From Deltaproteobacteria bacterium (GTDB lineage Bacteria > Desulfobacterota > BSN033 > UBA1163): DNA of 63,085 bases. The stretch spans positions 1 through 63,085 of the forward strand of contig JAGXTA010000150.1 in NCBI GenBank assembly GCA_018333535.1. Direction: 5' to 3'. Both the position numbers and the translations under genes were made by a program. Shown piece after piece: positions 3,154 through 18,627 of this stretch (positions within the stretch are counted from its first letter, which is position 1; every line of letters begins with the position of its first letter). A model generated the notes under the pieces. The model was not told where the DNA came from, searched no databases, and saw only the letters and a list, made by a program, of their open reading frames with translations.

Positions 3154-4359
3154 TTACCCAATAAACTCCGACGGAACATCTTTCAGCCGGGCCACATCTC
3201 GAATCTTCTTTGGAACGTTGAATCCAATCGAGCATTTCACCGGGCACGAGGAACAATCCTCGCAAACCCTGGAGGGAAGATTGAGCGACACGATCAAATC
3301 CTGAGCATGTGCAAGGCTTCGGTAGTCGTAAGTATACATATAGGCCCGCATCAGATCAGGGATGGAAAGTTTTTCCAGACATTGTCCTAAACATTGTCTG
3401 CAACCCTGGCAGTATAATCCGCGGATGGAGGCTTCCTTCTGCAACTCTAATTTTTCTGGTTCGGTGAGGGTCAGATCATCCATGATGGATAGGTCGATCT
3501 CTATATGTTCGAAGGCGGTAAACCCGGCAATAACCGTATGAACGTTCGGATCCTGAAGAATCCATTTGAAAGAAGCGGGGATATTCTTGACTGTCGGTGG
3601 TTGCTGGGAAATACCCCTGACTGCTTTCATCCCGACAATTCCAATACCAGACTGAGAGGCTCTGGCAATTGCTTTTCTCACTTCCTGATAATGTTTCTGT
3701 TTGAAGGTATAGGATGTAAGAATGACGTCATGGACTTTAGAATCGGTTACGGCATCGATGACCTCGGGCTCGTTTGAATGGGTGGAAACACCGGAGAATC
3801 GTATTTTCCCGTCTTTCTTTGCCTGTTCGAATGCTTTGAGAATTGGCTCATACATGACCGATTCTTTTCTGGATACCCCATGTTGACAGAGGATATCCAC
3901 GTAGTTGATGCCCAATCGCTTCAAACTGATGTCCAGTCTCTTGAGAAATTCTTCGGTTGTTGCTCCTTCTTGATAGAGCCCTGTCGTTCGATTCTGGGGG
4001 AGACTTATTTTGGTGGCAATATAGTATGAATCTCTGGGGCGCCCTTTAATTACCTCTCCGATCGTTTGCTCATTTCGGCCCTGCATATAGCCGTGAGCTG
4101 TGTCCAGAAGCAGGATTCCCGAATTCAGGGCCGTCCGGATGATGTTAGGATTATCGGTGAGCATGACCCCCATATTGATCACAGGGAGCTTCAGCCCTGT
4201 TTTCCCCAGAGTGCGGTAGACCATCTTCCTCTCTGTTCCTTTTGCCTCGACAACTCTTACGTCCTGTTTCATGTCGAGTGGGGGAAGGAAAAAGAGTCCG
4301 CCAAACCCCGCCAGCGATGACTTCATAAAATCTCTTCTGCCGATTAACTTTTTAGACAT
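3154..4359 (-). CDS. Tat-exported aldo/keto reductase with C-terminal Fe-S cysteines
   Basis: 401 residues from the ATG at 4357-4359, chosen because it follows GGTGAGAG and gives a proper twin-arginine start (GRRDFMK). The middle is an aldo/keto reductase barrel: YRTLGKTGLK, LLDTAHGY, and the catalytic-type Lys in IATK, with GKIRFSGVSTH further on. The C-terminal 100 residues carry CQGCRQCLGQC and CEDCSSCPVKC, i.e. ferredoxin-like clusters typical of the anaerobic 4Fe-4S aldo/keto reductase subgroup. Substrate unknown. It lies upstream of the DUF362-polyferredoxin pair in the same orientation and may belong to it. A decayed copy of the same C-terminus lies at 6046-6123. Confidence 0.9.
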   Translation of the reverse strand: MSKKLIGRRDFMKSSLAGFGGLFFLPPLDMKQDVRVVEAKGTERKMVYRTLGKTGLKLPVINMGVMLTDNPNIIRTALNSGILLLDTAHGYMQGRNEQTIGEVIKGRPRDSYYIATKISLPQNRTTGLYQEGATTEEFLKRLDISLKRLGINYVDILCQHGVSRKESVMYEPILKAFEQAKKDGKIRFSGVSTHSNEPEVIDAVTDSKVHDVILTSYTFKQKHYQEVRKAIARASQSGIGIVGMKAVRGISQQPPTVKNIPASFKWILQDPNVHTVIAGFTAFEHIEIDLSIMDDLTLTEPEKLELQKEASIRGLYCQGCRQCLGQCLEKLSIPDLMRAYMYTYDYRSLAHAQDLIVSLNLPSRVCEDCSSCPVKCSIGFNVPKKIRDVARLKDVPSEFIG

Positions 4360-4387
4360 AAGTTTTCTCTCACCTTTGTTAGAAATT

Positions 4388-4747
4388 TTACCCTCGATGT
4401 ACACGAAAGCCATCGTGCTCTAAAATAACAAGCCTTCCTTTGATGGATGCAAGGTCAAACTTCTCAAAGAAGTGTTCCAATGCCCTTTTGACGTCCTGAA
4501 GCAAAGGAGGGTGAATGCGAATTCTGATGATGCCATGATGGATAGAAGGCGGATAGAGTAAGATGTTGCTGAAGTGTTTATCAAAGGTCAACAACGCCCG
4601 TTCCTGTTCGGAGGCTAATTTGATGATCAAGGAGTCCGTGGCGGCGAAGAGGTTTGTCTCATGAACAGTTGTTACATCGAGACCTTTATCCCTGAGAAAA
4701 CCAACAATAGCAGGTGGAATGTTTTCATCCGCCAAAAATTTTATCAT
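4388..4747 (-). CDS. DUF5615 PIN-like toxin
   Basis: 119 residues of the DUF5615 (Mut7-C/PIN-like) family: starts IKFLADENIPPAIVGFLRDK, with conserved acidic residues in FLADEN and LLTFDKHF typical of this nuclease-like fold. The family is regularly paired with DUF433 proteins as a toxin-antitoxin module, and here the start overlaps the DUF433 stop by 4 nt. Predicted role is RNA cleavage, inferred from the fold only. The 3' end reaches close to the aldo/keto reductase start region. First of several such modules in a 7-kb stretch. Confidence 0.85.
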   Translation of the reverse strand: MIKFLADENIPPAIVGFLRDKGLDVTTVHETNLFAATDSLIIKLASEQERALLTFDKHFSNILLYPPSIHHGIIRIRIHPPLLQDVKRALEHFFEKFDLASIKGRLVILEHDGFRVHRG

Positions 4748-4989
4748 TGATGAGCTGTCTCAAATGGTATGTATTCTGTGTTCCGAATGAGGCTGGCGGC
4801 ATAGTGGAGACAGGCTTCGACATCTTGCTTTGTCAGTTGAGGATAATATTCTTGAATGATCCGTTCTGGGGGCATGCCTGTTTCAAGAAGCTCAAGGATC
4901 AGGTATACCATGATTCGAGTGTTCTTAATACAGGGCTGCCCGTGACAAATATTGGGATCAACTACGATTCGTTCTGTTAGGTTGCCCAT
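4744..4989 (-). CDS. DUF433 antitoxin
   Basis: 81 residues with the DUF433 signature: RIVVDPNICHGQPCIKNTRI, then the helix-turn-helix-like VYLILELLETGMPPERII and YYPQLTKQDVEACLHYA. DUF433 proteins are DNA-binding antitoxin-like partners of DUF5615. It is the first gene of a two-gene operon and overlaps the toxin start by 4 nt. Autorepression is typical for such modules but no operator can be shown. Confidence 0.87.
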   Translation of the reverse strand: MGNLTERIVVDPNICHGQPCIKNTRIMVYLILELLETGMPPERIIQEYYPQLTKQDVEACLHYAASLIRNTEYIPFETAHQ

Positions 4990-5076
4990 CGAATCACCTC
5001 AATCAAGATAATTAATCATACCATGAGGTCCAGGGTTAGTCAAACCGAGGAGTTTTATGAAGAGGTTTTATCCTCG

Positions 5077-5940
5077 TTAAGGTCTTTTTTCTAAGCTCAC
5101 CCCAAGTTTTTCAATATATTTAGACTTAAGGGCATGTTCCACATTTCCAATTATACCCCAGAGGTATCTTCCTCCCCACTGAAGATCAATTTCTCCGTGG
5201 TGAGGGTCGGAGAGGGCATAGCGGTCCTCTGTTACGTCCTTTCTTGGACTCTTGATCGTCTGGAGATACTTTTCAATCATGTCCCTGCACTCGTCCTTAT
5301 TTTTCCCCTCGATGACAAACAATTTGAACTTTTTGGCTTGAAGTTCATAATCGGCGGTAAAGCTGGAATGTAAGAAAGCATAGCCCAAAAAGTTTTTAGA
5401 GACGAACATCTCTGAATTCCCTTTTTTCCCCTCTGCGGGGAAAGAGGATAAGATAGAAGGGAAGGATCCCTTCTCCCCTAAATTTTGGGCTACCTTTTTA
5501 GCAAAGGCAACCAACACCTCCCGATCCTCTGGGCCGGTATTAATAGTGCTTATCTTTACATAGTAAGGACCTGTCAGAAAATTGAGGAATCCTTTCTCAT
5601 AATAGCCCTGTACCCCGATATCGAGAAAATTGGCCCCGGAAAGGCGCTCCTGGCTGTAAATTCCAAAAGCATAGAGGGGGGTTCTGTGGCGATAAACATC
5701 AACGGTCACTGAGGCCTTCTTTTCGTTCTGGTATTCAGCCACCTTCAATTCCTCAAAATCATAAATCAGATAGAGATCCGCCGCCCCATTGATATATTCG
5801 TAAAGATTTTTTGGAATAAAAGTCTCGATCTCCCCGGACTGCTTCCATCCAGTTATTTCTGGAAATGCGAAGTCCTTTGCCTCTGAAATTGAGTTCCATA
5901 AAATGATAATCGTGCTTAACACCAAACAAATGGTTTTCAT
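5077..5940 (-). CDS. exported DUF6599-like protein
   Basis: 287 residues with an N-terminal signal peptide (hydrophobic 3-18, then ISEAKDF). The rest resembles DUF6599: PKNLYEYINGAADLYLIYDF, YRHRTPLYAFGIYSQER, then LTGPYYVKIS. The family is common in anaerobes and of unknown function. It stands alone, with a perfect GGGGAGACGATCGTCTCCCC palindrome about 45 nt upstream of its start. Assignment rests on remembered family motifs. Confidence 0.75.
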   Translation of the reverse strand: MKTICLVLSTIIILWNSISEAKDFAFPEITGWKQSGEIETFIPKNLYEYINGAADLYLIYDFEELKVAEYQNEKKASVTVDVYRHRTPLYAFGIYSQERLSGANFLDIGVQGYYEKGFLNFLTGPYYVKISTINTGPEDREVLVAFAKKVAQNLGEKGSFPSILSSFPAEGKKGNSEMFVSKNFLGYAFLHSSFTADYELQAKKFKLFVIEGKNKDECRDMIEKYLQTIKSPRKDVTEDRYALSDPHHGEIDLQWGGRYLWGIIGNVEHALKSKYIEKLGVSLEKRP

Positions 5941-5984
5941 TGTCTTAAGTCCCTTCTGTTTCTCTAAAAGGGTGGCAGAAATAA

Positions 5985-6004
5985 GGGGAGACGATCGTCT
6001 CCCC
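5985..6004. promoter_or_regulatory. perfect 20-bp palindrome upstream of DUF6599 gene
   Basis: GGGGAGACGATCGTCTCCCC is self-complementary over its full length. It lies 45 nt from the start codon on the minus strand, so it could be an operator or an RNA hairpin in the leader; there is no T-tract that would make it a clear terminator. Confidence 0.5.
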
Positions 6005-6045
6005 CCTAAATAAAATTATAACCTTTTTTCTTAATAAAAAAAGAC

Positions 6046-6123
6046 TCACCCCGCAATAAACTCCGCCGGCACGTCTCTTAACCGCGCCACATCCCGGATC
6101 TTGCGCATCAAATTTAATCCAAC
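6046..6123 (-). pseudogene. C-terminal remnant of an aldo/keto reductase
   Basis: On the minus strand these 78 nt encode VGLNLMRKIRDVARLRDVP followed by AEFIAG and a stop. This closely matches the last residues of the intact reductase at 3154-4359 (GFNVPKKIRDVARLKDVPSEFIG). Nothing upstream continues the gene. It is therefore the tail of a lost paralogue, left beside a truncated hepT. Confidence 0.75.
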
Positions 6124-6204
6124 AATTATTTTGGCATCGGTAATTTACTATTAACTTGAGCGGCTTTTCTGAAAAAGGGTTTGGTCAAGAAAGGGGGAAA
6201 TACT

Positions 6205-6366
6205 TTATTGCGGCAGTCTGACCTCAAGAGTTTTTAACCCTTTCAATACCCAGGGGTCCTTGAGAAGCTCTGCATCAGAACTTCTCAATACTAATTCTTT
6301 GATCTCATGATGACGGGCTTTAATCTCCAGAAGATACCTCTGTATCTTTTCAGTATCAATCTTCAT
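6205..6366 (-). pseudogene. truncated HepT-like toxin
   Basis: 53 residues beginning MKIDTEKIQRYLLEIKARHH and reaching DPWVLKGLK, which matches the first ~45 residues of HepT/DUF86 toxins (normally 100-145 aa). It then ends in an unrelated TLEVRLPQ and stop. The RNase motif (R-x4-H), which lies in the C-terminal part of HepT, is absent, so it should be inactive. The start overlaps the mntA stop by 1 nt, the usual gene order. The deletion probably also removed the rest of the reductase gene next to it. Confidence 0.7.
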
Positions 6367-6779
6367 TACAGTGAAGCCTCAGCAAGAAGTCCGGCACATT
6401 CCCTGTATTTGAGGGAGACATGTTCTATGAGATCGGTTCTCAGGCCTGGATCAAGGTCAATAAGAAGTTTTCCTTCTTTAAAGATTCTATTCAGGAATGT
6501 GAATGGGGCATCATTGATTACCTTCACATCAAATTGATCAGCCGTTAGGTTGACTCCCTCTTCCCTGGAATAACGGGACAATTCAGTTCTCAGATCAGAG
6601 GTGATAACGAAAATATTTTCTTCGGGATTCTTGATATAGATTCCGATATCGATATCCCGGAACGCTTCTTCTTTCACGAAGGACCCATAGGCATAAGCAA
6701 AAATGGTCCTTCCATCTCGCGCAAGAGCCCCTTTGATTAAGTTGAGAATTCTCTCTCTTTTCATATTCGATACGCCCAT
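6366..6779 (-). CDS. MntA-like nucleotidyltransferase antitoxin
   Basis: 137 residues of the minimal nucleotidyltransferase family. The active-site motif GSFVKEEAFRDIDIGIY matches GSxxx(x)..DxDxxx of MNT proteins. In intact MntA/HepT modules this enzyme modifies HepT by adding AMP to a tyrosine and so neutralises it. Here the HepT partner is truncated, leaving an apparently intact antitoxin with no toxin. An internal ATG at 6764 (MKRERI) is an alternative start; neither has a convincing ribosome-binding site. Confidence 0.85.
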   Translation of the reverse strand: MGVSNMKRERILNLIKGALARDGRTIFAYAYGSFVKEEAFRDIDIGIYIKNPEENIFVITSDLRTELSRYSREEGVNLTADQFDVKVINDAPFTFLNRIFKEGKLLIDLDPGLRTDLIEHVSLKYRECAGLLAEASL

Positions 6780-8026: not shown

Positions 8027-9693
8027 ACCTGAATTTTGCATCAAAATAGCATTTTTAACCTCGAACAGCATTTTTCATGCAAAATATTTTTTGCATGGGT
8101 AGGTGTGATCCTTGATGCCAATAAACTGGACTGTTCAGTATTTCCGGGTGTTTGCGCAGTATATCGAGGTTGTGAATGAGACGATCCAACCGTTCTCTTC
8201 CGCTAAGGTGTGAAGAATAATGGATCTTGACCGTGTTGTTCCCGCTGACAATCTTTGCAGCAATAAACAACAATTTCAATCTCGACACATGAATCGTATT
8301 TTGTGTTTTGTGGTCTTGCTCCTTTTGGGTTTTCTGCTCCTGATCCTTCAAATCCGCAAAGCCGATCATATAACGCCATAAATTGTACGAGAGCATCACG
8401 ATCTGAAAGTACGCATAGTTGCTCTGAAACTTTTTACCCGGAATCGCTGCCAACCCCTCCCGCTTGGCCTCCCCAATCAGAGTCTCTGCCCCCGCTCTCC
8501 CATCATATTCTTCAATCACCTGGTGGGCTCTTTTGGTAAGACTCGTCACAAAAATCCGATATTTGTACCGGTCATCTTCAAAGAGCTCAAACTGAACCGG
8601 CTCCGAAGGAGCAGCCTCCCTCTCTTTCGGAATCCGTTGGGCCACAAACCGACACGCCTTCTTCCAACCCGAGGGCTGAAAGTAACAACTGTTATACTGA
8701 ATCCCTTTGTCTCGACCCACGCTATACCACCCCTTCGGATCAAACGGAGGACGCGTCCGCTTTGCCGAAATAATATAATCATATCCACGACGAAGACAGG
8801 CATTGACCGCCGCCCAACTATACATCTCCGAGTCTGCACGAACAATGACTCGTTTCACATAACCCGGAATCAACTTCCCAAAGGACAAAATCAACCGGGC
8901 CACCTCCTGCCCCGAAATCGTCTCCCCCCGACGAAACATCCCTGTTAGATATTCCCGTGTCTCGGCAATGAACGTCAACACCGGCCTCAGCCCCTTTTTC
9001 CCCCGATGCCCAGGATTATGCCCTCGCTTTGCCCCCTGGATCAATCCATACACCGTCTCTACCGTCGTATCGATATCGAGATGAATGCACTCCGGAACTA
9101 TCCCCAGACTCCTCCATGCCCTCTCCCTCAACACCCCCATCACCCGCAATAAACTCATCGACTGATGACGCCCAATCGATTGAAGATACCGCCAAAAGGT
9201 GCTCACAGCCGGTAACCGCTCCACCCCCAAAATCCCCAGCAACATCGGATCGTCGCAAATATAAACAAAATGATTCAACCGGCAAAACCCGATAAACAGT
9301 AGCAACAAAAGCCCCTTGATGAAAAACAGGCTCCCATATTGGGTCTCCCGAGTGGGCTCACAATAAAATGCGGAAAACTGAACGTCAAATCTTAACCCGT
9401 CCCATAACTTCACCAAGGGCAAAAGCCCTCCATACGGGCTTAAATGCTCATCAATATAACCCTGGCGCGTAGAAGCCTTGATTTTTCTGGCCTTTCGGCC
9501 ACCCTCTTTTTCCCCTTGTTTTATGCCCTTTTTTTGTTTATGCTGTTTCTCGGACTTAACCATTTGAGTTACCTCCCTGTTTATTCTTGGTTTCTTTGTT
9601 TCTCTCTCTAACCCAAGAATATAGAGGCTCTCAGATGGTTAGTCCACTATTTTTCACCGATACCGCATAAACTGACGCAAAATTCAGGTAATA
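8023..9693 (-). mobile_element. complete IS1380-family insertion sequence with target duplication
   Basis: The element proper is 8028-9688 (1661 bp). Its ends are inverted: CCTGAATTTTGCATCA on the left and TGACGCAAAATTCAGG on the right (one mismatch). It is flanked by 5-bp direct repeats TAATA (8023-8027 and 9689-9693). One full-length transposase gene is inside. The intact ends, gene and duplication suggest a recent insertion. Confidence 0.9.
8055..9563 (-). CDS. IS1380-family transposase
   Basis: 502 residues, full length for the family. Recognised by the DDE layout of IS1380: HLDIDTTVETVYG (first Asp region), VIVRADSEMYSW (second Asp), and a C-terminal acidic EEYDGRAGAETLIGEAKREG with the YNLWRYM segment. 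The start at 9563 has a GGAGGT ribosome-binding site 7 nt upstream. The basic N-terminus (KQKKGIKQGEKEGGRKARK) fits DNA binding. No frameshift is visible, so it is probably active. Confidence 0.92.
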   Translation of the reverse strand: MVKSEKQHKQKKGIKQGEKEGGRKARKIKASTRQGYIDEHLSPYGGLLPLVKLWDGLRFDVQFSAFYCEPTRETQYGSLFFIKGLLLLLFIGFCRLNHFVYICDDPMLLGILGVERLPAVSTFWRYLQSIGRHQSMSLLRVMGVLRERAWRSLGIVPECIHLDIDTTVETVYGLIQGAKRGHNPGHRGKKGLRPVLTFIAETREYLTGMFRRGETISGQEVARLILSFGKLIPGYVKRVIVRADSEMYSWAAVNACLRRGYDYIISAKRTRPPFDPKGWYSVGRDKGIQYNSCYFQPSGWKKACRFVAQRIPKEREAAPSEPVQFELFEDDRYKYRIFVTSLTKRAHQVIEEYDGRAGAETLIGEAKREGLAAIPGKKFQSNYAYFQIVMLSYNLWRYMIGFADLKDQEQKTQKEQDHKTQNTIHVSRLKLLFIAAKIVSGNNTVKIHYSSHLSGRERLDRLIHNLDILRKHPEILNSPVYWHQGSHLPMQKIFCMKNAVRG

Positions 9694-9698
9694 CATAC

Positions 9699-10499
9699 AT
9701 GAAAACAAAGCTGGGCCGTCAAGAAACGCAGATGCTTGCCTATCTGCAAATGCGAAAGCGACGCACCGTGCGGACAGGCGAATTGACCGGACCTTTGCAA
9801 CTCACCCGAGACCAGGAGCGGGAATTGTTTCGCCGGATGGCTCGCGGAAGGCTCATCGTACGGGTTCGTCCTGGCCTGTACCTTGTTCCGGCGCAATTGC
9901 CCCTCGGTGGATCGTGGAGCCCGGACGAAACCATGGCCCTCAATACCTTGATGGAAGACCGCGAAGGTCGTTACCAGATATGTGGTCCCAATGCGTTCAA
10001 TCGGTATGGGTTCGATGATCAGGTACCAACCCGGATCTACGCCTATAACAACCGGATTTCGGGCGAGCGAACCATAGGAACGATTACCCTGACGCTCATC
10101 AAAGTGGCGGACGACCGGCTTGGCGACACAGAGGATGTAGAAGTGGCGGAAGGACTCACCGCTGTGTATTCTTCGCGTGTGCGGACATTAGTGGACGCAG
10201 TGTATGACTGGGCAAGATTCAACAGCCTGCCTCGGGGGTACGTGTGGATTCGGGGCGAACTGGCGGCGAAACAGATCGATGCGGGGAACTTGGTGGCAGT
10301 CACGCTCCGTTACGGCGACAAGGGGACTATCAGGAGGATCGGTGTATTATTGGAAGGACAAGGCGTGAAGGAAGAGTTGCTTCGCAAGTTGGAGCGAGCC
10401 TTGAAACCTTCGACGAGTCTGATCCCGTGGAACCCCCTGAAGCCGAAACGGGGAACAATCAACCAACGCTGGGGAGTTGTGCTGAATGAGCAAACGTGA
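9699..10499 (+). CDS. abiEi: AbiEi-family antitoxin (type IV toxin-antitoxin)
   Basis: 266 residues. N-terminal winged helix (residues ~1-80, ending in RVRPGLYLVPAQLP) followed by the AbiEi domain with ICGPNAFNRYGFDDQVP and the RVRTLVDAVYDW segment. AbiEi represses its own operon and counters the AbiEii nucleotidyltransferase; AbiE modules give phage exclusion. It overlaps abiEii by 14 nt. Only 5 nt separate the IS1380 target duplication from the ATG, and no ribosome-binding site is present, consistent with an originally leaderless transcript now separated from its promoter. Confidence 0.85.
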   Translation: MKTKLGRQETQMLAYLQMRKRRTVRTGELTGPLQLTRDQERELFRRMARGRLIVRVRPGLYLVPAQLPLGGSWSPDETMALNTLMEDREGRYQICGPNAFNRYGFDDQVPTRIYAYNNRISGERTIGTITLTLIKVADDRLGDTEDVEVAEGLTAVYSSRVRTLVDAVYDWARFNSLPRGYVWIRGELAAKQIDAGNLVAVTLRYGDKGTIRRIGVLLEGQGVKEELLRKLERALKPSTSLIPWNPLKPKRGTINQRWGVVLNEQT

Positions 10500-11370
10500 G
10501 AACTCCTTCGTTGCCCATGTCCATGAGGATTCCGCTCTGTTTCGTGAAACTGTGAACTTCACAACGGCTGAGACCGCTTTTGCCTCACGTCTGATTGAAA
10601 AAGACTACTTCTGCACTGCATTATTAACCTACCTGACCGATGCGGACAACAGGCTGGTATTTAAAGGCGGGACGTGCATAACAAAAGTCCATGCGGATTT
10701 TTATCGACTCAGTGAGGATCTGGACTTCGTCATCCCTATACCAGTAACTTCAACTCGTTCCCAGCGAAGCAAGCTGGTGGCCGGAGCGAAAAAAGCCGTA
10801 GCGCAGTTGCCAGAGCGGCTTCCCGGTTTTCGCCTCGTCAATCCGTTACAAGGAGCGAACAACTCCACCCAGTATATTGCCGTCGTTGGTTATTCTTCAC
10901 TGGTCCGTCGGCAAGAGGAAACCATCAAAATAGAAATCGGCCTCCGAGAACCTTTGTTGACACCTGTAGTGAACGGCCTCGTACGAACGATCATACTTAA
11001 TCCAGTGTCCGGCAAGCCGCTCATGCCCCCGGTCTCCGTGAGGTGCATTTCGAAGACAGAAGCCTTGGCCGAGAAGTTTCGGGCCGCTCTGTCCCGGCGC
11101 GAGGTAGCCATCCGGGACTTCTTTGACATTGACTACGCTGTACGGAAATTGAATCTCAACGTACAGGACGCCGCTTTCATCCGGTTGATCCGCAGCAAGC
11201 TCGACGTGCCTGGAAACGATCCGGTTGACGTTTCTGGAGACCGTCTGAAAGTTCTTAGACTGCAACTTGAAGCGCGTTTAAAACCCGTATTGCGTGCCAG
11301 GGATTTCGCTGAATTTGACCTCGATCGTGCGTTCGAGATCGTAGCCTCAGTGGGAGCCATGGTGCGGTGA
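10486..11370 (+). CDS. abiEii: AbiEii-family nucleotidyltransferase toxin
   Basis: 294 residues of the AbiEii/AbiGii toxin family. Signature FKGGTCITKVHADFYRLSEDLDFVIPI gives the nucleotidyltransferase GG...S-EDLDF active site near residues 58-82; further family segments are KIEIGLREPLL and FRAALSRREVAIRDFFDIDY. These toxins transfer nucleotides to an RNA target (tRNA in studied members). Overlap with abiEi shows operon structure. Both genes look complete, so function now depends on whether the IS end supplies transcription. Confidence 0.88.
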   Translation: MSKRENSFVAHVHEDSALFRETVNFTTAETAFASRLIEKDYFCTALLTYLTDADNRLVFKGGTCITKVHADFYRLSEDLDFVIPIPVTSTRSQRSKLVAGAKKAVAQLPERLPGFRLVNPLQGANNSTQYIAVVGYSSLVRRQEETIKIEIGLREPLLTPVVNGLVRTIILNPVSGKPLMPPVSVRCISKTEALAEKFRAALSRREVAIRDFFDIDYAVRKLNLNVQDAAFIRLIRSKLDVPGNDPVDVSGDRLKVLRLQLEARLKPVLRARDFAEFDLDRAFEIVASVGAMVR

Positions 11371-11496: not shown

Positions 11497-11525
11497 TTGA
11501 CAACTAAACAGATGTATAGTATTCT
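11497..11525 (+). promoter_or_regulatory. sigma-70 promoter of lexA
   Basis: TTGACA (11497-11502), 17-nt spacer, TATTCT (11520-11525), about 98 nt before the lexA start codon. Confidence 0.65.
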
Positions 11526-11532
11526 GAAAACC

Positions 11533-11623: not shown

Positions 11624-12247
11624 ATGGAGTTGACAGCTCGGCAGAGAGAAATCTTCGAGTTCATCCATGGGTTTATCAGGGAGAGGGGTTATCCTCCTTC
11701 TATAAGAGAGATTGGCGAACATTTCCATATTTACCCCAGGGCTGCCTTCGACCACCTCAAGGCGCTGGAGAGAAAGGGTTATTTGAAACGGCGAAGTTCA
11801 ATGTCCAGAGGTCTTGAGATACTTGTCTTTGAGGAAGATAGGCTCCGAAAGGGGAGCAGGCCATTGATTCGGGACATTCCTGTTTTAGGCAGGGTTGCGG
11901 CAGGGAAACCCACACTGGCCGTGGAGCATGTGGAGGAGACCCTCCCGCTTCCGACAGAATGGGTGAAAGGCAAGGAGGTCTTCCTTCTGAAGGTTAAGGG
12001 CGACAGCATGTCTCCGTATATCCTTCCGGGCGATTATGTGATTGTTCGGTCCCAGCCTTCGGCTGAGAACGGAGATGTGGTGGTGACCCTGATGGGTGAG
12101 GAGTCGACCGTGAAGCGGTTTTTCAAAAAGGGGAGAAAGATCGAACTGAAGCCGGATAACGAACACTGGGAAACGATCCGGATTGAAGAGGGAGCAGGAG
12201 AAGTTCAAATTCTTGGGAAAGTGATTGGGGTTTTCAGGAAATGCTAA
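11624..12247 (+). CDS. lexA: LexA repressor
   Basis: 207 residues. N-terminal winged helix with GYPPSIREIGEHF and a divergent recognition region (IYPRAAFDHLKALERKGYLKR). C-terminal S24-type self-cleavage domain: cleavage site Ala93-Gly94 in RVAAGKP, nucleophile Ser128 in KGDSMSP, general base Lys164 in STVKRFF. All catalytic residues are present, so RecA-stimulated autocleavage is expected. The AAAGGAGGAATT ribosome-binding site is strong. It heads a same-strand group with a RecA-like gene and a family-B polymerase, suggesting an SOS-controlled mutagenesis cassette. It may be the global LexA or a cassette-specific one. Confidence 0.93.
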   Translation: MELTARQREIFEFIHGFIRERGYPPSIREIGEHFHIYPRAAFDHLKALERKGYLKRRSSMSRGLEILVFEEDRLRKGSRPLIRDIPVLGRVAAGKPTLAVEHVEETLPLPTEWVKGKEVFLLKVKGDSMSPYILPGDYVIVRSQPSAENGDVVVTLMGEESTVKRFFKKGRKIELKPDNEHWETIRIEEGAGEVQILGKVIGVFRKC

Positions 12248-12255
12248 TTTCAAGA

Positions 12256-12386
12256 TTATCAGGTCATCAGGGAATCGGGAAGCAGGGTAACAGGAAACCA
12301 GGACATTAGGAAACCAAGCTTAAAACCTGATACCCTGATAAACTGATGCCCTGCAACCTGATATTCTGATTACCCGGTAACCTGAT
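12256..12386. repeat. imperfect palindrome of CAGG/CCTGAT words between lexA and RecA-like gene
   Basis: The left half (ATCAGG, ATCAGGG, CAGGGTAACAGG) is the approximate reverse complement of the right half (CCTGATACCCTGATA, CCTGCAACCTGAT, GGTAACCTGAT), with the centre at the AAGCTT near 12317. The design resembles the palindrome at 392-500. Confidence 0.55.
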
Positions 12387-12398
12387 TTGGGTAGAAAG

Positions 12399-13112
12399 AT
12401 GGATCAAGCGTTGATCGCTCTGTTCGATGAAGTCCTGTCGCAAGTTCAAACCGGCCTCCCGAAGAAGGTTCTTTTCCAGGGGGAAGGGACCGGAGGAATC
12501 GCATCCTATGCGGCGGGGTGGATGGCAGGCAAGGGGATGGATGTCATCGTCCTGGATGGTGCGAATTGTTTTAATCCTTATATAGCATCATCCTTCGCCA
12601 GAAAGGCGTTGATTTCTCCGGAAAGGATTCTTAAGAGGATTCGGATAGCAAGAGCCTTCACCTGCTACCAGATGGCAACCCTGATGGGAGAACAGTTGCC
12701 CTCTCTACTCAAGAAAGAGATGGCAACCGTACCAACAAAAAAGCCCTGGGTGATTCTCCTGGGGCCGCTTACCACCTTCATGGATGAGGATGTGCTGGAG
12801 ATGGAGGTCCGGCCTCTCTTCGAGAAAGCCCTGAGTAAGGTAGAGAAAATAGCTGCGGAGGGTGTGCCTTTCTTTCTGTTTCAGTCTCCTGTTTTCCCCG
12901 GTTCTAAAAGGGCATTTCTCATGAAAAGGCTCTCCCAATTTTCTGATCTGGCCTGGAGGATATCTCTGGAAGGTCAAGAGCCAAAGATGATTTTGGAAAA
13001 GAGATTGACGAAACACGAAATTCCCTGCCTACCGGCAGGCAGGCGAGCACCTGCCTTCGCCGAAGCGGCTTCGCGCAGGCAGGCCAATATCCAAATAACC
13101 AATATCCAATGA
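12399..13112 (+). CDS. RecA/RadA-like protein with degenerate P-loop (ImuA-like role?)
   Basis: 237 residues from the ATG at 12399; an in-frame TTG at 12387 lies inside the repeat and is less likely. The core has RecA-fold features: a Walker-A position reading GEGTGGIAS (no lysine), IVLDGANCFNPYIASSFARK, ILKRIRIARAFTCYQM as in RadB/Rad51-like proteins, and a Walker-B-like strand WVILLGPLTTF. Loss of the P-loop lysine argues against normal ATP hydrolysis; ImuA-type RecA relatives in mutagenesis cassettes are comparable. The last ~25 residues (after KHEIP) are encoded by a palindromic repeat, so the native C-terminus was probably shorter. Lies between lexA and polB. Confidence 0.65.
   Translation: MDQALIALFDEVLSQVQTGLPKKVLFQGEGTGGIASYAAGWMAGKGMDVIVLDGANCFNPYIASSFARKALISPERILKRIRIARAFTCYQMATLMGEQLPSLLKKEMATVPTKKPWVILLGPLTTFMDEDVLEMEVRPLFEKALSKVEKIAAEGVPFFLFQSPVFPGSKRAFLMKRLSQFSDLAWRISLEGQEPKMILEKRLTKHEIPCLPAGRRAPAFAEAASRRQANIQITNIQ
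13024..13085. repeat. palindromic CCTGCCTACCGGCAGGCAGG repeat at the end of the RecA-like gene
   Basis: Contains CCTGCC-T/A-CCGGCAGGCAGG followed by a second hairpin (CTTCGCCGAAGCGGCTTCGCGCAGG). It is read through in frame, giving the C-terminal PAGRRAPAFAEAASRRQA of the RecA-like protein. Confidence 0.65.
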
Positions 13113-13179
13113 CCGAATTCCCCAACACAAATTGATCAAGAAGTTTTGGTTATTTGAATAGTGGTAAACTTGTAAAAGC

Positions 13180-13310
13180 CGTCACTCCGGTGAAAACCAG
13201 AGTCCAGAGAATTCTTAACCAATTAAAAACACTGGATTCAGGCCTTCGCCGGAATGACGAAACTATGACCAAAGAGACTTTTTACGAGACCATCGGTTCA
13301 AATTTGCATT
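13180..13310. repeat. dispersed GTCA-TCCGG ... CCGGAATGAC element (one arm family of 32191)
   Basis: GTCACTCCGGTGAAAACCAGAGTCCAG and CTGGATTCAGGCCTTCGCCGGAATGAC form inverted arms; GACTTTTTACGAGACCATC at 13279-13297 is the outer end shared with 32191-32323 and 37335-37497. It lies just before the small helical gene. Confidence 0.65.
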
Positions 13311-13328
13311 TTGCATTGAGAGGTACTC

Positions 13329-13628
13329 ATGGGACGTACCGTTTTGCCTTTCAGTCAGGTTTTGGAACAGGAAGTCCAGGAGTGGCGAAAATTTCGAAGG
13401 GGCCTGCGTAAGGAGGATCAGCAGTTCCTCGACCGGCTCTTCGAAAAAGCAAGGCTTCATGTGCAGGCCGGAGTCTATGCCTCGAGGCCCTGGCCTTTTG
13501 AAACGATCCTGATCTCCATGCTTTTAGAGCACGAGAAGACATTGGTCGAATTGAAATCGAAGCTGAAGGCCTTAGAAACTGATACTACTCAGACAGGTAC
13601 CCCATCCCCCTCCTGGCCTCCCCCTTGA
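13329..13628 (+). CDS. small helical protein of the polB cassette
   Basis: 99 residues, not a family I recognise. Predicted almost entirely helical: VLEQEVQEWRKFRRGLRKEDQ, FLDRLFEKARLHVQAGVYAS, then ETILISMLLEHEKTLVELKSKLKALE with coiled-coil character. The proline-rich end (TPSPSWPPP) comes from a hairpin repeat. Its position between the RecA-like gene and polB, same strand, suggests an accessory subunit of the polymerase system. An ATG at 13329 follows GAGAGG. Confidence 0.65.
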   Translation: MGRTVLPFSQVLEQEVQEWRKFRRGLRKEDQQFLDRLFEKARLHVQAGVYASRPWPFETILISMLLEHEKTLVELKSKLKALETDTTQTGTPSPSWPPP

Positions 13629-13661
13629 AGGGGGAGGTAAAAAGGTTTCCATCCCCCTCCA

Positions 13662-13795
13662 GGAGACTGTGTCGTAATTCCGTTCATGGTTCGAGAGCCT
13701 CACCACGAACGGATAACGGCATGTTAAAAATCAATCACTTAGCCGTTCGTCCTGAGTGTGTCGAAGGGCGAATGGCTAATTACGACACAGTCTCC
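13662..13795. mobile_element. 134-bp MITE-like element with 18-bp terminal inverted repeats
   Basis: GGAGACTGTGTCGTAATT (13662-13679) is repeated in perfect inverted form at 13778-13795. The inside holds smaller palindromes (CCGTTCATGGTTCG...CGAACGG; GCCGTTCGTCCTGAG...). It lies in the loop of a CCCCCTCC...AGGGTGAGGG hairpin repeat. No protein is encoded, so movement would need a transposase elsewhere. A related copy is at 35278-35471. Confidence 0.8.
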
Positions 13796-13870
13796 AGGGT
13801 GAGGGTGCCCGCTGCGCCAGGCGCGATGCGCGGCGAGAGGGTGGGGCTAGGAGGGGAATTAGGCGAACCG

Positions 13871-16183
13871 ATGGAACTCCGTGGATGGCTTTTCGATCTC
13901 TACCCACTCGACTCCTCAATGATTCTCTGGATCAAAGGCGAGGATGGATTACTTCATCGATTTGAAGATCCTTTTCGACCTCGATTCTATGCGCAGGGGA
14001 ATCGGGGAGATCTTCTTGCTCTATTTGATTCTCTTCAGAAAGGCCGACAGGCTACCGGGTATCAATGGACTAAAAAAAGGGAGTTCTGGAGTGGAAAGGA
14101 AATCGAAGTGATGGAGATCGAAATGACCGATCCGGAGCATTACGCTCAACTCCTGAGGCTTCTTCCTTCATGGGAGGAGAGAATAACGTTCTATAACTGC
14201 GATATCCCATCCCCTCAGGCTTACCTTTACGAAAAGGGACTCTTTCCCACAGGTCGATGTGTCGCTGAAATCGAGGGAACTCGAATCTTCGGAATTGAGC
14301 CCGACAAATCCGAATCGTTGTGGATGGATGATGGAGACCTTCCTGATCTTCGGGTGATGGAACTGAACCATTACGGTTCAGGGTGGAGAAAGGCGCTTCT
14401 GCTGGAATGCGAAGGATACCAGGTTGAGATGGAGGACGTGGATATTGGGGAGGTCAGAAGGTTTATCAAACAGTTCGACCCCGATGTGATTCTGAGCGAT
14501 CACGGAGATGCTTCTCTTCTGCCTTTTCTCTTTTCATTAGAGAGGAGATGGAAGACCTCCATCCCCTGGGGCCGGGAACCTCATCCCATCACGAGGCAGA
14601 TTGATCCCAGAGGCCATTCCTACTTTTCTTATGGCCGGACCTACTACCGGGCTCCTGCCCATCTCTTTTGCGGAAGATGGCATATTGATCGGCGCAACTC
14701 CTTCATCTATGGGGAGTCGGGTATGGAAGGGGTGATCGAACTGGCGCGATTGGCCAAGATTCCGGTTCAGCGGATGGCCCGCACCTCTCCGGGAACAGCT
14801 ATCACCTCGATGCAGCTCGACCGGGCCTTTCAGGACGGCATTCTCATTCCCTGGAGAAAGGGGGAGCCTGAGCGATTCAAGACGGCCTGGGATCTACTCG
14901 TTGCTGACAAAGGCGGTCTTGTTTTTCAGCCGAAGCTGGGGATCTTCGAGGATGTGGCGGAGATCGACTTTGCTTCGATGTATCCAACGATCATGGCCAT
15001 TCACAATATCTCTCCCGAGACCGTGCTCTGCCAATGCTGTGCAAACCATCGGGTTCCGGAAGCAGGCTATACGATCTGCGAGAAGAGAGAAGGAATTGTT
15101 CCCAAAACCTTGAAGCCAATTTTGGAGAGAAGAGCGTGGCTGAAAAGAAAAGTCAAAGAGATGGAAGGGGGAACACCCCTCACCCCACCCCCTCCCCTCG
15201 GGGGAGAGGGAACAGCTCTTAACCCCTCTCCCCTGGCGGGAGAGGGTAAGGGTGAGGGGGAAAAGCGAGAGATCTACAATCGCAAGCAGACGGCGCTTAA
15301 GTGGATGCTTGTTACCTGTTTCGGATATTTGGGTTATCGGAATGCCCGCTTCGGAAGGATTGAAGCCCATGAAGCGGTCACTGCCTTTGGAAGGGAGAAG
15401 CTCCTTCAAGCCAAGGAGATCTGCGAGGAGGAAGGGTTTGAACTTCTCCATGCCATCACCGATTCCCTCTGGATTCGCAAAAAAGGATTGAAGGAAGGAG
15501 AGGTTCTTGAGCTTTGTCGGAAGATCGGTGAGGCTACCGGGATCACGATGAGTCTGGAGGGAGTTTACCGATGGGTGGCTTTTCTTCCTTCAAAGGGGAA
15601 TCGAGAAAGCCCTGTGGCCAATAGATATTTCGGTCTTTTTAAAAATGGGAAGATCAAAGCAAGGGGATTGGCATTCCGACGAAGCGATACGCCTCCTCTG
15701 ATTCAAGAGGCTCAGGTCCGGATGCTCGAGATTCTGAAAACAACAAAAGATTTAGATGATTTTCAATTCAAGATTCCGGAGATTTTGGATATTCTTCTCG
15801 AATACGGTCTGGTGTTGAAAAATGGCGAGATGAAGCAGGAGGATCTGGCCATTGCAAAGAGGATCTCTCGGGAACCGAATGCCTATAAGGTGGATAGTCT
15901 CACTGCTCTTGCCGCCCAGCAGTTGGAGGATACAGGAATTGCGATCCATCCCGGAGAGAAGGTGAAATATGTGATCAAAGATGCCCTCTCAAAAGACAAG
16001 TCTGAAAGGGTGAGACCTTTTCCACTGGTAGGACCTGACGACACATACGATGTAAAAAAATATCTGGATCTGCTCGTGAAGGCGACCGAGGAGATCTTGA
16101 TCCATTTTGGCTACGATGTGAAGCGCCTGGAAGAGCTAATCGATGTTTCGCTTCCCCCTCTCCTTTGTCGAAGATCCCGCTGA
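13871..16183 (+). CDS. family-B DNA polymerase, exonuclease motifs apparently lost
   Basis: 770 residues from the ATG at 13871; an open frame continues upstream to 13625 but that part is encoded by the MITE and hairpin repeat. Polymerase motif A is DFASMYPTI (Asp366), motif B is in KWMLVTCFGYLGY (~475), motif C is ITDSLW (Asp531; the first Asp of the usual DTDS is Ile, the essential second Asp is kept). The exonuclease region is present (residues ~145-320) but DxE (Exo I), NxxxFD (Exo II) and YxxxD (Exo III) are not recognisable: VMELNHYG, ILSDHGDASLL and FIYGESGMEG stand in their places. Prediction: active, non-proofreading polymerase for lesion bypass. Residues ~433-464 derive from an in-frame hairpin repeat between motifs A and B. 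Confidence 0.88.
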   Translation: MELRGWLFDLYPLDSSMILWIKGEDGLLHRFEDPFRPRFYAQGNRGDLLALFDSLQKGRQATGYQWTKKREFWSGKEIEVMEIEMTDPEHYAQLLRLLPSWEERITFYNCDIPSPQAYLYEKGLFPTGRCVAEIEGTRIFGIEPDKSESLWMDDGDLPDLRVMELNHYGSGWRKALLLECEGYQVEMEDVDIGEVRRFIKQFDPDVILSDHGDASLLPFLFSLERRWKTSIPWGREPHPITRQIDPRGHSYFSYGRTYYRAPAHLFCGRWHIDRRNSFIYGESGMEGVIELARLAKIPVQRMARTSPGTAITSMQLDRAFQDGILIPWRKGEPERFKTAWDLLVADKGGLVFQPKLGIFEDVAEIDFASMYPTIMAIHNISPETVLCQCCANHRVPEAGYTICEKREGIVPKTLKPILERRAWLKRKVKEMEGGTPLTPPPPLGGEGTALNPSPLAGEGKGEGEKREIYNRKQTALKWMLVTCFGYLGYRNARFGRIEAHEAVTAFGREKLLQAKEICEEEGFELLHAITDSLWIRKKGLKEGEVLELCRKIGEATGITMSLEGVYRWVAFLPSKGNRESPVANRYFGLFKNGKIKARGLAFRRSDTPPLIQEAQVRMLEILKTTKDLDDFQFKIPEILDILLEYGLVLKNGEMKQEDLAIAKRISREPNAYKVDSLTALAAQQLEDTGIAIHPGEKVKYVIKDALSKDKSERVRPFPLVGPDDTYDVKKYLDLLVKATEEILIHFGYDVKRLEELIDVSLPPLLCRRSR
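15171..15262. repeat. hairpin repeat inserted in frame in polB
   Basis: CACCCCTCACCCCACCCCCTCCCC...GGGGGAGAGGG and CCCCTCTCCCCTGGCGGGAGAGGGTAAGGGTGAGGGGG are two copies of the window's G/C-rich hairpin. They keep the polB frame and are translated as a Pro/Gly-rich segment (TPPPPLGGEG, NPSPLAGEGKGEGE). Confidence 0.85.
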
Positions 16184-16222
16184 ATTATAGCGGGAAGGGG
16201 AGAGGGCAAGGGTGAGGGTGTG
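16145..16222. repeat. hairpin repeat at the end of polB
   Basis: CCCCCTCTCCTTTGTCG... and GGGAAGGGGAGAGGGCAAGGGTGAGGG form a hairpin that encodes the last few residues of the polymerase (SLPPLLCRRSR) and could end transcription. Confidence 0.6.
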
Positions 16223-16297
16223 AAAACTGCTATAAAAAATGATGTTTTTATGCTATTATTACCGTTAAGTAATTCTTATTGAAGGAGGATACCTTAA

Positions 16298-16474
16298 ATG
16301 AGACAATATAAAATCATAGTAGAGAAACATCCCGATGGTTATGTAGCATACCCGTTGGGAGTAAAAGGGGTTGTTGTCGGCGAGGGTGATACATATGAGG
16401 AGGCACTTTCGGATGTAAAATCTGCGATCCGCTTTCATATCGATACGTTCGGGACAGATGCCTTGGGCAAATAG
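16298..16474 (+). CDS. orphan HicB-type antitoxin
   Basis: 58 residues: YKIIVEKHPDGYVAYPLGVK, then GEGDTYEEALSDVKSAIRFHI, the partial RNase-H-like HicB fold. The start has a GAAGGAGGA ribosome-binding site. HicB normally neutralises the HicA mRNA interferase encoded next to it; no hicA is visible on either side, so this is an orphan antitoxin or a small HicB-like protein with another role. It ends 43 nt before the methyltransferase gene. Confidence 0.75.
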   Translation: MRQYKIIVEKHPDGYVAYPLGVKGVVVGEGDTYEEALSDVKSAIRFHIDTFGTDALGK

Positions 16475-16517
16475 GGTCAGACTTGAGAATTAATCTACCA
16501 CCAATAGGAATAGTGCT

Positions 16518-17804
16518 ATGAAAACCCGTCATAAGATAATCATTGGGGATTCGAGGTGGATGAAAGAAGTTCCTGATGAATCAGTCCATCTCGTTATTAC
16601 TTCTCCCCCTTATTGGCAATTAAAAGACTATGGGAATGGGAAGCAAATAGGTTTTAATGACACTTACGAAGAATATATCAACAATCTTAATTTGGTCTGG
16701 AGTGAATGTCATCGGGTACTACACAAAGGTTGCCGCCTGTGTGTAAATATAGGGGATCAGTTTGCACGCTCTGTTTATTATGGGAGATATAAGGTTATCC
16801 CCATAAGGACAGAAATCATTAAATTTTGTGAAAATGTCGGTTTTGATTACATGGGTGCCATTATCTGGCAAAAAGTGACAACCTGCCATACTACTGGTGG
16901 GGCTACTGTGATGGGTTCCTATCCATACCCTCGGAGTGGAATTATCAAGTTAGATTACGAATTCATCCTGATTTTTAAAAAATATGGCGAATCACCGAAA
17001 GTTAATAAAGAAATTAAAGAACTTTCAAAATTAACTCAGGAAGAATGGAGCCAGTACTTCACCGGTCACTGGAATTTTGCGGGTGAAAAACAAGATAAAC
17101 ATCTCGCCATGTTTCCTGAAGAGTTACCGAAGCGGCTTATCAAGATGTTCAGTTTTGTTGATGATACTGTTCTTGATCCGTTCTTGGGCAGCGGTACTAC
17201 ATCTCTGGCAGCCAAAAACCTCGGTAGAAACTCTATCGGGTATGAAATAAATGGAGATTATTTGCCAATAATTAGAGAGAAACTCGGAATGAGACAGAAA
17301 GATATTTTTAAGGAAGCAATGGTAGAAATAATTAAACAAGAAGGAGTAACAATAAACTTTCTGGAAAGGATTAACGAACTTCCCTATATCTTTAGAGACC
17401 CTATAAAATTTGATAAGAAGGTTGACCCTAAAAAATTGAGATTCGGCTCAAAGATATCTGCCGACGTTGATTCTCAGAGAGAGAAATATTATTCGGTAAA
17501 AGAAATCATATCCCCAGAAGTTATGGTATTAAATAACGGGCTAAAAGTCAGGCTATTAGGAGTGAAGGAAAAGCCCGACAAGAACGGCGCAGCCGTTCAG
17601 TTTTTAAAAGAAAAGACACGCGGCCAGAAAGTATTCCTGAAGTTTGATACGGCCAAATATGATAAAGAGAATAATCTGCTTTGTTACCTTTATTTATGGA
17701 ATAAGACCTTTTTAAACGCCCACCTGATTAAGAATGAGTTAGTGGATGTGGATAACTCATTCGATTACAAATACAAATCTAAATTTTTGAGATTAAGAGG
17801 GTAA
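16518..17804 (+). CDS. DNA methyltransferase with C-terminal SNase-like domain
   Basis: 428 residues. Beta-class amino-methyltransferase: catalytic TSPPYW (residues ~29-34) precedes the AdoMet motif DPFLGSGTT (~216). TSPPY is typical of N4-cytosine methylases, so it should protect the site cut by the neighbouring MjaI-like nuclease. From residue ~335 a second domain follows: MVLNNGLKVRLLGVKE, FLKEKTRGQKVFLKFD, and LLCYLYLWNKTFLNAHLIKN, which looks like a staphylococcal-nuclease/OB fold. The catalytic Arg/Asp/Glu set of true SNases is not clear, so it may only bind DNA. AT-rich compared with neighbours, suggesting transfer. Confidence 0.85.
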   Translation: MKTRHKIIIGDSRWMKEVPDESVHLVITSPPYWQLKDYGNGKQIGFNDTYEEYINNLNLVWSECHRVLHKGCRLCVNIGDQFARSVYYGRYKVIPIRTEIIKFCENVGFDYMGAIIWQKVTTCHTTGGATVMGSYPYPRSGIIKLDYEFILIFKKYGESPKVNKEIKELSKLTQEEWSQYFTGHWNFAGEKQDKHLAMFPEELPKRLIKMFSFVDDTVLDPFLGSGTTSLAAKNLGRNSIGYEINGDYLPIIREKLGMRQKDIFKEAMVEIIKQEGVTINFLERINELPYIFRDPIKFDKKVDPKKLRFGSKISADVDSQREKYYSVKEIISPEVMVLNNGLKVRLLGVKEKPDKNGAAVQFLKEKTRGQKVFLKFDTAKYDKENNLLCYLYLWNKTFLNAHLIKNELVDVDNSFDYKYKSKFLRLRG

Positions 17805-17826
17805 TAGAACGCCAAAAGATTGGATA

Positions 17827-18513
17827 ATGGGCAGTGATGGGGAAAATCTTAAATTTAAAAGGGAAACCCTACTGAATTATGGAATGAATCGATGGGGGTT
17901 GAATAAAGCTCAGAGTGTGGGGAAGACCTCAGAATTGATTAGAAAATGTGCTCCAAACTCATTTGAGGAATGGAAATCCTATTACTTTAACAATGCGACT
18001 CAGAAGAAACGGAATGGAATCAAGATAACCAGAGAATTTATTAGAGATTTAGGTCAAAAGCTTTATGTGAAACTCTCTGATGTAGTCCAAAATGAATTGG
18101 GTTCCATTCAGGAGGAAGAATGTATAGATTATGCTTATAATCTTGTTTTGAATAGAACTTATGAGGGTTATAGATCAGAAATAGAAACAATTTATGGACA
18201 ATTGGAATCTATTTTGGGTGTTAAAGTTCAGCCAGCGCCTGATGAGTGGGATAGAACTTTTAATGTCGATTTTTATATTGAAGTTGGTGAGAAATTTATT
18301 GGGCTACAAATCAAACCTATATCTTCAGGTCAGGCATTGAACCAATATCAATGGATTAAAATGCACGAAGTCAACCATGAGAAATATAGAAATAAATTTG
18401 GCGGTCAGGTTTTCTTCATTTATTCTGTGAAGTCTGGTAAAAAGAAGAAAATATTTAACGTTGAGGTCATTGAAGAAATTAGAAAAGAAATCGAAACATT
18501 GAAAAAAGACTGA
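17827..18513 (+). CDS. MjaI-like type II restriction endonuclease
   Basis: 228 residues resembling the MjaI restriction endonuclease family: KITREFIRDLGQKLY, YAYNLVLNRTYEGY, then APDEWDRTFNVDFYIEVGEK and GLQIKPIS. The last part gives a PD-(D/E)xK-like centre (Asp in NVDFYI, QxK in LQIKP). MjaI itself cuts CTAG, so that is a reasonable guess for the target. It follows the methyltransferase by 22 nt on the same strand. The start at 17827 lacks a good ribosome-binding site; an ATG about 19 codons later is possible. Strongly AT-rich, as is its partner. Confidence 0.75.
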   Translation: MGSDGENLKFKRETLLNYGMNRWGLNKAQSVGKTSELIRKCAPNSFEEWKSYYFNNATQKKRNGIKITREFIRDLGQKLYVKLSDVVQNELGSIQEEECIDYAYNLVLNRTYEGYRSEIETIYGQLESILGVKVQPAPDEWDRTFNVDFYIEVGEKFIGLQIKPISSGQALNQYQWIKMHEVNHEKYRNKFGGQVFFIYSVKSGKKKKIFNVEVIEEIRKEIETLKKD

Positions 18514-18525
18514 AACCACTGCATC

Positions 18526-18594
18526 GCCTGGCACAGCACAAACGGCTAAAGTCTAAATTGCGTCGCAACTCCGTTTGTGCTGGAGACGTTGGGT
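18526..18594. other. attC-like imperfect hairpin after the restriction genes
   Basis: CAGCACAAACGG (18534-18545) pairs with CCGTTTGTGCTG (18571-18582), and the right side continues GGAGACGTTGGGT, whose GTTGGGT fits the integron R' consensus GTTRRRY. The matching left RYYYAAC is not clear. The position directly after a gene and before the next fits a cassette boundary, but the evidence is partial. Confidence 0.35.
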
Positions 18595-18627
18595 TTGAAT
18601 GTTTTTTATAAAAGAAGGGAATAATTA

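Follow-up and report, generated by a model that had tools for sequence, protein, structure and literature searches.

Leptospirillum ferriphilum carries lexA, an inactivated radA, arCOG07300 and an inactivated PolB (LFML04_0990-0993) in one predicted operon, and Makarova, Krupovic & Koonin proposed a DNA-damage role for this four-gene unit in 2014 (PMC4104785). Timinskas (2025) named the PolB2 mutasome, modelled it as a complex of PolB2, iRadA and three PPB2 subunits, and described its lexA neighbourhood (PMC11791011). A 2026 survey of bacterial polymerases lists PolB2 as group G2 (PMC12926913), and published work holds that the system in bacteria stems from a single archaea-to-bacteria transfer. 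We analysed a stretch of 63,085 nucleotides from a Deltaproteobacteria bacterium (Desulfobacterota; contig JAGXTA010000150.1 of assembly GCA_018333535.1), called the window throughout. Four of its genes form a bacterial PolB2 ("G2") mutasome operon, lexA-iRadA-PPB2-polB2. This is an already-known system, and the window cassette is real and looks functional, a well-preserved further example of the known arrangement.

The L. ferriphilum system shares with the window all four genes in one operon and the proposed damage response; it belongs to another species, and in the text consulted neither an operator nor repeat-derived inserts are reported for it (PMC4104785). With the modelled PolB2 mutasome the window locus shares the order iRadA-PPB2-PolB2, the MGRT arm, the D(K/R) motif, the lost exonuclease site, the lost DxD, a RadA without an ATPase site and the enrichment of lexA nearby (PMC11791011). 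It differs in that no clamp-binding motif was found in its iRadA or PolB2 by a simple pattern, in its predicted LexA operator and in the repeat-derived filler at the fingers tip. Dpo2 of Sulfolobus islandicus belongs to the same orthologous group, shares the loss of the exonuclease residues and the change in motif C, and is a damage-inducible extender (PMC7390963, PMC8764526), but it is archaeal, the archaeal operons are linked to an Orc1/Cdc6-type regulator rather than LexA, and for the window protein such activity is a prediction. E. coli Pol II is likewise B-family, SOS-associated and extender-like, but it acts as a single subunit with an active exonuclease, and the window polymerase matches its profile much more weakly than that of archaeal PolB.

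In lexA-imuA-imuB-dnaE2 cassettes LexA comes first, a RecA-fold accessory protein second and a specialised polymerase last. The window locus is likewise led by LexA and combines a specialised polymerase with an accessory protein of RecA fold, but this polymerase is of family B, not C, and iRadA and PPB2 replace ImuA and ImuB.

The gene set and its occurrence in other genomes

The genes lie on one strand of the window (+) in the order lexA, iRadA, PPB2, polB2 (Table 1). A sequence-only reading of the same DNA had named a LexA, a RecA-like protein, a small protein predicted to be helical and a polymerase of family B, and all of these are found, in that order and on the same strand. It had held that the bacterial arrangement deserved a direct look. 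The arrangement is not new: the four-gene operon was already published in 2014 (PMC4104785) and the complex modelled in 2025 (PMC11791011).

The sequence-only reading had named a lack of co-occurrence in other genomes as a refutation. Co-occurrence of the four genes is far above chance and does not refute it: the complete LexA-iRadA-PPB2-PolB2 order is present in 23 of 26 loci of the phylum that have enough upstream sequence. A polymerase match was obtained in 70 of the 395 phylum-sample genomes, where the weak matches include other family-B polymerases. Named genome contigs were chosen by similarity to the window polymerase and do not give unbiased frequencies; iRadA-PPB2-PolB2 is found in 46 of the 49 that have enough upstream sequence, and 20 of these 46 have a lexA upstream in the same direction. 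Their titles refer to Desulfobacterota-type bacteria, Nitrospirae, Chloroflexi, Bacteroidetes, Acidobacteria, Sumerlaeota and other lineages. Five loci (L071, L062, L094, L107 and L134) have a PolB2 gene without detectable iRadA and PPB2 nearby and are either orphan or rearranged; in L071 lexA adjoins polB2.

Table 1. Coordinates of the cassette genes, the lexA promoter and the repeats in the window
Feature	Coordinates	Strand	Evidence or remark
lexA promoter with predicted LexA operator	11497..11527	+	operator conserved across 15 loci
lexA, cassette LexA repressor, 207 amino acids (aa)	11624..12247	+	TIGR00498 2.3e-63, Pfam match
iRadA, RadA/Rad51-like pseudo-ATPase	12399..13112	+	RadA profile match, AlphaFold2 (AF2) model, no Walker A
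PPB2 (arCOG07300 homologue), 99 aa, helical, starts MGRTV	13329..13628	+	conserved GRTV
intergenic repeat block, nested palindromes	13625..13870	+	30-nucleotide inverted repeat 13650-13679/13778-13807
polB2, PolB2/G2 family-B DNA polymerase, 770 aa	13871..16183	+	NCBIfam and Pfam family-B matches, alignments, model
dispersed palindromic repeat inside polB2	15167..15262	+	in-frame insert of ~32 aa, fingers tip, aa 433-464

The polymerase, its partner proteins and the repeats

The window polymerase matches the archaeal PolB profile at 5.9e-95, compared to 5.6e-22 for E. coli Pol II, and its AF2 model, with a predicted local distance difference test (pLDDT) score of 87.3, finds its best PDB matches among archaeal PolB structures. 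The ATG at 13871, behind GGAGGGG, is the start of the sequence common to the relatives. A start at the TTG at 13625 was considered and discarded, as the ~80 additional codons consist of nested palindromic repeat and the conserved protein begins at the ATG. The polymerase carries a HIDR motif (D273-R274), whose Asp is invariant among the aligned relatives and which corresponds to the D(K/R) motif that precedes the palm; the published model places that motif against PPB2 (Timinskas 2025, PMC11791011).

The exonuclease motifs DxE, NxxxFD and YxxxD are missing from the window PolB2, both when it is aligned by profile to the structure of Pyrococcus abyssi PolB and in an alignment of 35 sequences. 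The profile alignment to P. abyssi PolB spans the exonuclease domain, and the ExoI Asp/Glu, the ExoII Asn/Asp and the ExoIII residues are unconserved; the motifs are gone in all 35 aligned relatives. The sequence-only reading, which had described a polymerase with no recognisable exonuclease motifs and intact synthesis motifs, is borne out on the first point, as alignment of the region restored none of the three motifs, and is not confirmed on the second. Motif A (DFASMYP) is intact. Motif B, in contrast, reads KWMLVTCFGYLGY (CFGYLGY) instead of the canonical NSxYG, and motif C reads HAITDS, with ITD in place of DTD, so that the first metal-binding Asp is gone. DxD is absent from every aligned relative that covers motif C. 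Membership in the E. coli Pol II group was rejected, since the window protein has neither an active 3'-5' exonuclease nor a DTD motif C.

The missing Asp of motif C and the altered motif B would fit a catalytically dead polymerase that is induced through LexA for a structural or regulatory role, for instance at stalled forks or in replication initiation; PolB2 is read as inactivated, with such roles suggested, in the 2014 study (PMC4104785). We regard this as unlikely. Dpo2 has robust polymerase activity despite a motif C loss of this kind (PMC8764526) and was reported to be necessary for damage-induced mutagenesis (PMC7390963). Strong conservation of motif A and of the palm/fingers core, maintained by purifying selection, also speaks against a dead enzyme. 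The ratio of nonsynonymous to synonymous substitution rates (dN/dS) is far below 1 in all four cassette genes; its pairwise values of 0.05-0.23 for PolB2 argue that polB2 is a functional gene.

The second protein matches RadA/Rad51 profiles (1.9e-10), and its AF2 model (pLDDT 93.5) has RadA as its best PDB match. It has no GKT Walker A motif and no N-terminal RadA domain, and is conserved over aa 1-204, the final ~33 aa being repeat-derived. By these features it is iRadA, a RadA pseudo-ATPase, rather than ImuA or RecA. The third protein begins MGRTVLPF; GRTV is retained in all aligned PPB2 copies of the phylum, with V to I as the sole change seen, and the MGRT start is also found in archaeal plasmid and Leptospira phage copies. 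We assign this small protein to PPB2 on its N-terminus and size. A Leptospira phage LE1-type record (KF114879.1, L183) contains a complete iRadA-PPB2-PolB2 set, with iRadA at about 3180-3779, PPB2 within 3670-4005 and polB2 at 3992-6445; both partner genes are annotated as hypothetical, and no lexA was detected in the stretch of this record that was examined.

The order of the window genes, with LexA first, a RecA-like protein second and the polymerase last, resembles lexA-imuA-imuB-dnaE2 closely enough to bring to mind an ImuA-ImuB-DnaE2 type cassette into which a Pol II-like polymerase has been swapped. With a RecA-like protein that matches RadA/Rad51, a third protein that is PPB2 and not ImuB, and a polymerase much closer to archaeal PolB than to Pol II and devoid of the exonuclease site, such an origin is very improbable. 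The genome, which is 97% complete, has one DnaE-type polymerase, one RecA and one Y-family polymerase, the latter encoded next to the second lexA; with a single polymerase of each of these two types, the DnaE2/ImuB pair is absent. Membership in an ImuA-ImuB-DnaE2 cassette was rejected, as DnaE2 and ImuB were not found in the genome.

Palindromic repeats occur at four places in the operon: in the tail of iRadA, ahead of polB2, at the PolB2 fingers tip and past the polB2 stop. The fingers-tip repeat has 51 further BLAST matches in the window genome. The filler at this position differs from one family member to another (L037-L049) and is absent outside the family, and the model has pLDDT <50 at PolB2 aa 435-459. 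As far as we found, the filling of the PolB2 fingers tip by repeats is new, although the literature on in-frame palindromic elements was not searched. Similar in-frame palindromic elements exist in Rickettsia.

An operon invaded by repeats at these four places, coding sequences included, could be a decaying remnant, and a congener (G192; L181, C68:28000-38000) has in fact lost most of it. In G192 lexA, the operator and about the first 40% of iRadA remain. A natural deletion has removed everything from mid-iRadA up to and including polB2 and the restriction-modification genes, which corresponds to about 12665-18602 of the window. In the window, however, all four reading frames are open, dN/dS is well below 1, the inserts are in frame and confined to loops and tails, and the operator and the conserved residues are kept. 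We therefore consider decay extremely improbable.

LexA and its predicted operator

The cassette LexA has an Ala93-Gly94 cleavage site, and Ser128 and Lys164 occupy the positions of the Ser/Lys dyad. A predicted LexA operator, ACTAAACAGATGTATAGT, is located at 11503-11520 and fills the spacer between the -35 and -10 elements of the lexA promoter, which reads TTGACA-ACTAAACAGATGTATAG-TATTCT with the -35 TTGACA at 11497-11502. The operator is a palindrome of the form ACTA-N-ACA-NN-TGT-N-TAGT. In the family and its sister lineage this region could be read at 15 loci, and all of them have the palindrome ahead of the cassette lexA, exact in 14 and with one mismatch in the remaining locus. Its distance to the LexA domain varies from 51 to 447 base pairs, the surroundings diverge, and at some loci repeats have inserted between the two. 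Diverged versions are found in other clades (L059, L060, L063 and L068).

A search of 17 genomes found sites in 15, mostly exactly one, and few for a reversed control; the window genome has one perfect site. In the window, a search allowing three mismatches gave one match compared to 0.72 expected by chance, and the weight of the prediction lies in the exact match, its placement and its conservation rather than in that count. As far as we found, the operator prediction is new relative to earlier published work on this system.

A wider regulon for the cassette LexA was considered. The genome has only one perfect site; a one-mismatch site lies on another contig (C159), where the listed open reading frames (ORFs) show no obvious SOS gene, and no operator-like site was seen by eye at the recA locus as read. 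The second LexA of the genome (C123) adjoins a dinB-like gene and has a different recognition helix. From this pattern we infer that the cassette LexA would serve as a dedicated switch for the mutasome. The description as "single target" is not absolute, since a second perfect operator is found in G395 (L170, C12, about 1501-1518), directly upstream of a ParB-like gene; that site and gene are perhaps on a mobile element. For this bacterial family the balance tips slightly towards a combined proposal in which the cassette LexA is largely single-target, the mutasome works as an SOS unit of its own apart from the dinB-side LexA, and the fingers tip is a permissive site that has been filled in frame, time and again, with different dispersed palindromic repeats.

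Proposed mechanism and genomic setting

We consider it highly probable that the operon encodes a LexA-controlled PolB2-iRadA-PPB2 complex for damage tolerance. LexA would bind the palindrome in its own promoter and keep the whole lexA-iRadA-PPB2-polB2 unit off. Upon DNA damage, RecA filaments would promote self-cleavage of LexA and the operon would be derepressed. PolB2, which has neither proofreading nor the first motif C Asp, would join iRadA and a PPB2 trimer, and the MGRT arm of PPB2 may extend towards the polymerase active site; this architecture is taken from the published model. By analogy with the archaeal enzyme, the complex would extend mispaired primer ends left by other polymerases at lesions, with both survival and mutation increasing. 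Archaeal PolB2, which lacks exonuclease activity, extends mispaired ends at lesions and is accurate on undamaged templates (PMC8764526). For the bacterium studied here, binding by LexA, induction of the operon and bypass of lesions are inferred.

The earlier suggestion that a B-family polymerase takes the place of ImuB/DnaE2 fits the operator in the promoter, the lack of a second DnaE and the presence of only a DinB-type Y-family polymerase. Its term error-prone calls for caution, given the accuracy of archaeal PolB2 on undamaged DNA and its role as an extender of mispaired ends.

Several points weigh against the proposed mechanism. The catalytic Asp of motif C is missing, and retained activity in spite of this is known from archaeal enzymes only; no assays of a bacterial PolB2 of this kind were found in the cited literature. 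In the window, a simple pattern search of the C-terminal ends of iRadA and PolB2 detected no beta-clamp motif. The same pattern found the motif in 5 of 98 iRadA and 9 of 121 PolB2 sequences of the set, and in the PolB2 mutasome family only some members have it in the iRadA or PolB2 C-terminus. The repeat-derived filler at the fingers tip might impair PolB2. Finally, the loss of most of the operon in G192 argues that the module is dispensable or accessory.

The cassette is flanked by genes of other kinds. A DDE_Tnp_1_4 type transposase (8055-9563) is followed, just upstream of the cassette, by a gene that weakly matches DUF6088 and one for a nucleotidyltransferase of AbiEii type (9699-11370), a possible type IV toxin-antitoxin pair. 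A small ORF between polB2 and the methyltransferase (16299-16475, MRQYKIIVEKHPDGYVAYPLG...) resembles a HicB-type antitoxin by eye. A DNA methyltransferase and then an MjaI-type restriction endonuclease (16518-18513) lie directly downstream of the cassette, and the C-terminal stretch of the methyltransferase has a weak SNase-like match below the cut-off.

Bacterial PolB2 mutasomes are little studied, and the window and its relatives add to them a family that is well conserved. The specific operator prediction is testable and goes beyond what earlier work gave. The natural loss in G192 marks the module as accessory. A genome that combines the cassette with one DnaE-type and one Y-family polymerase offers a clean setting for the question of whether a B-family complex replaces DnaE2/ImuB.

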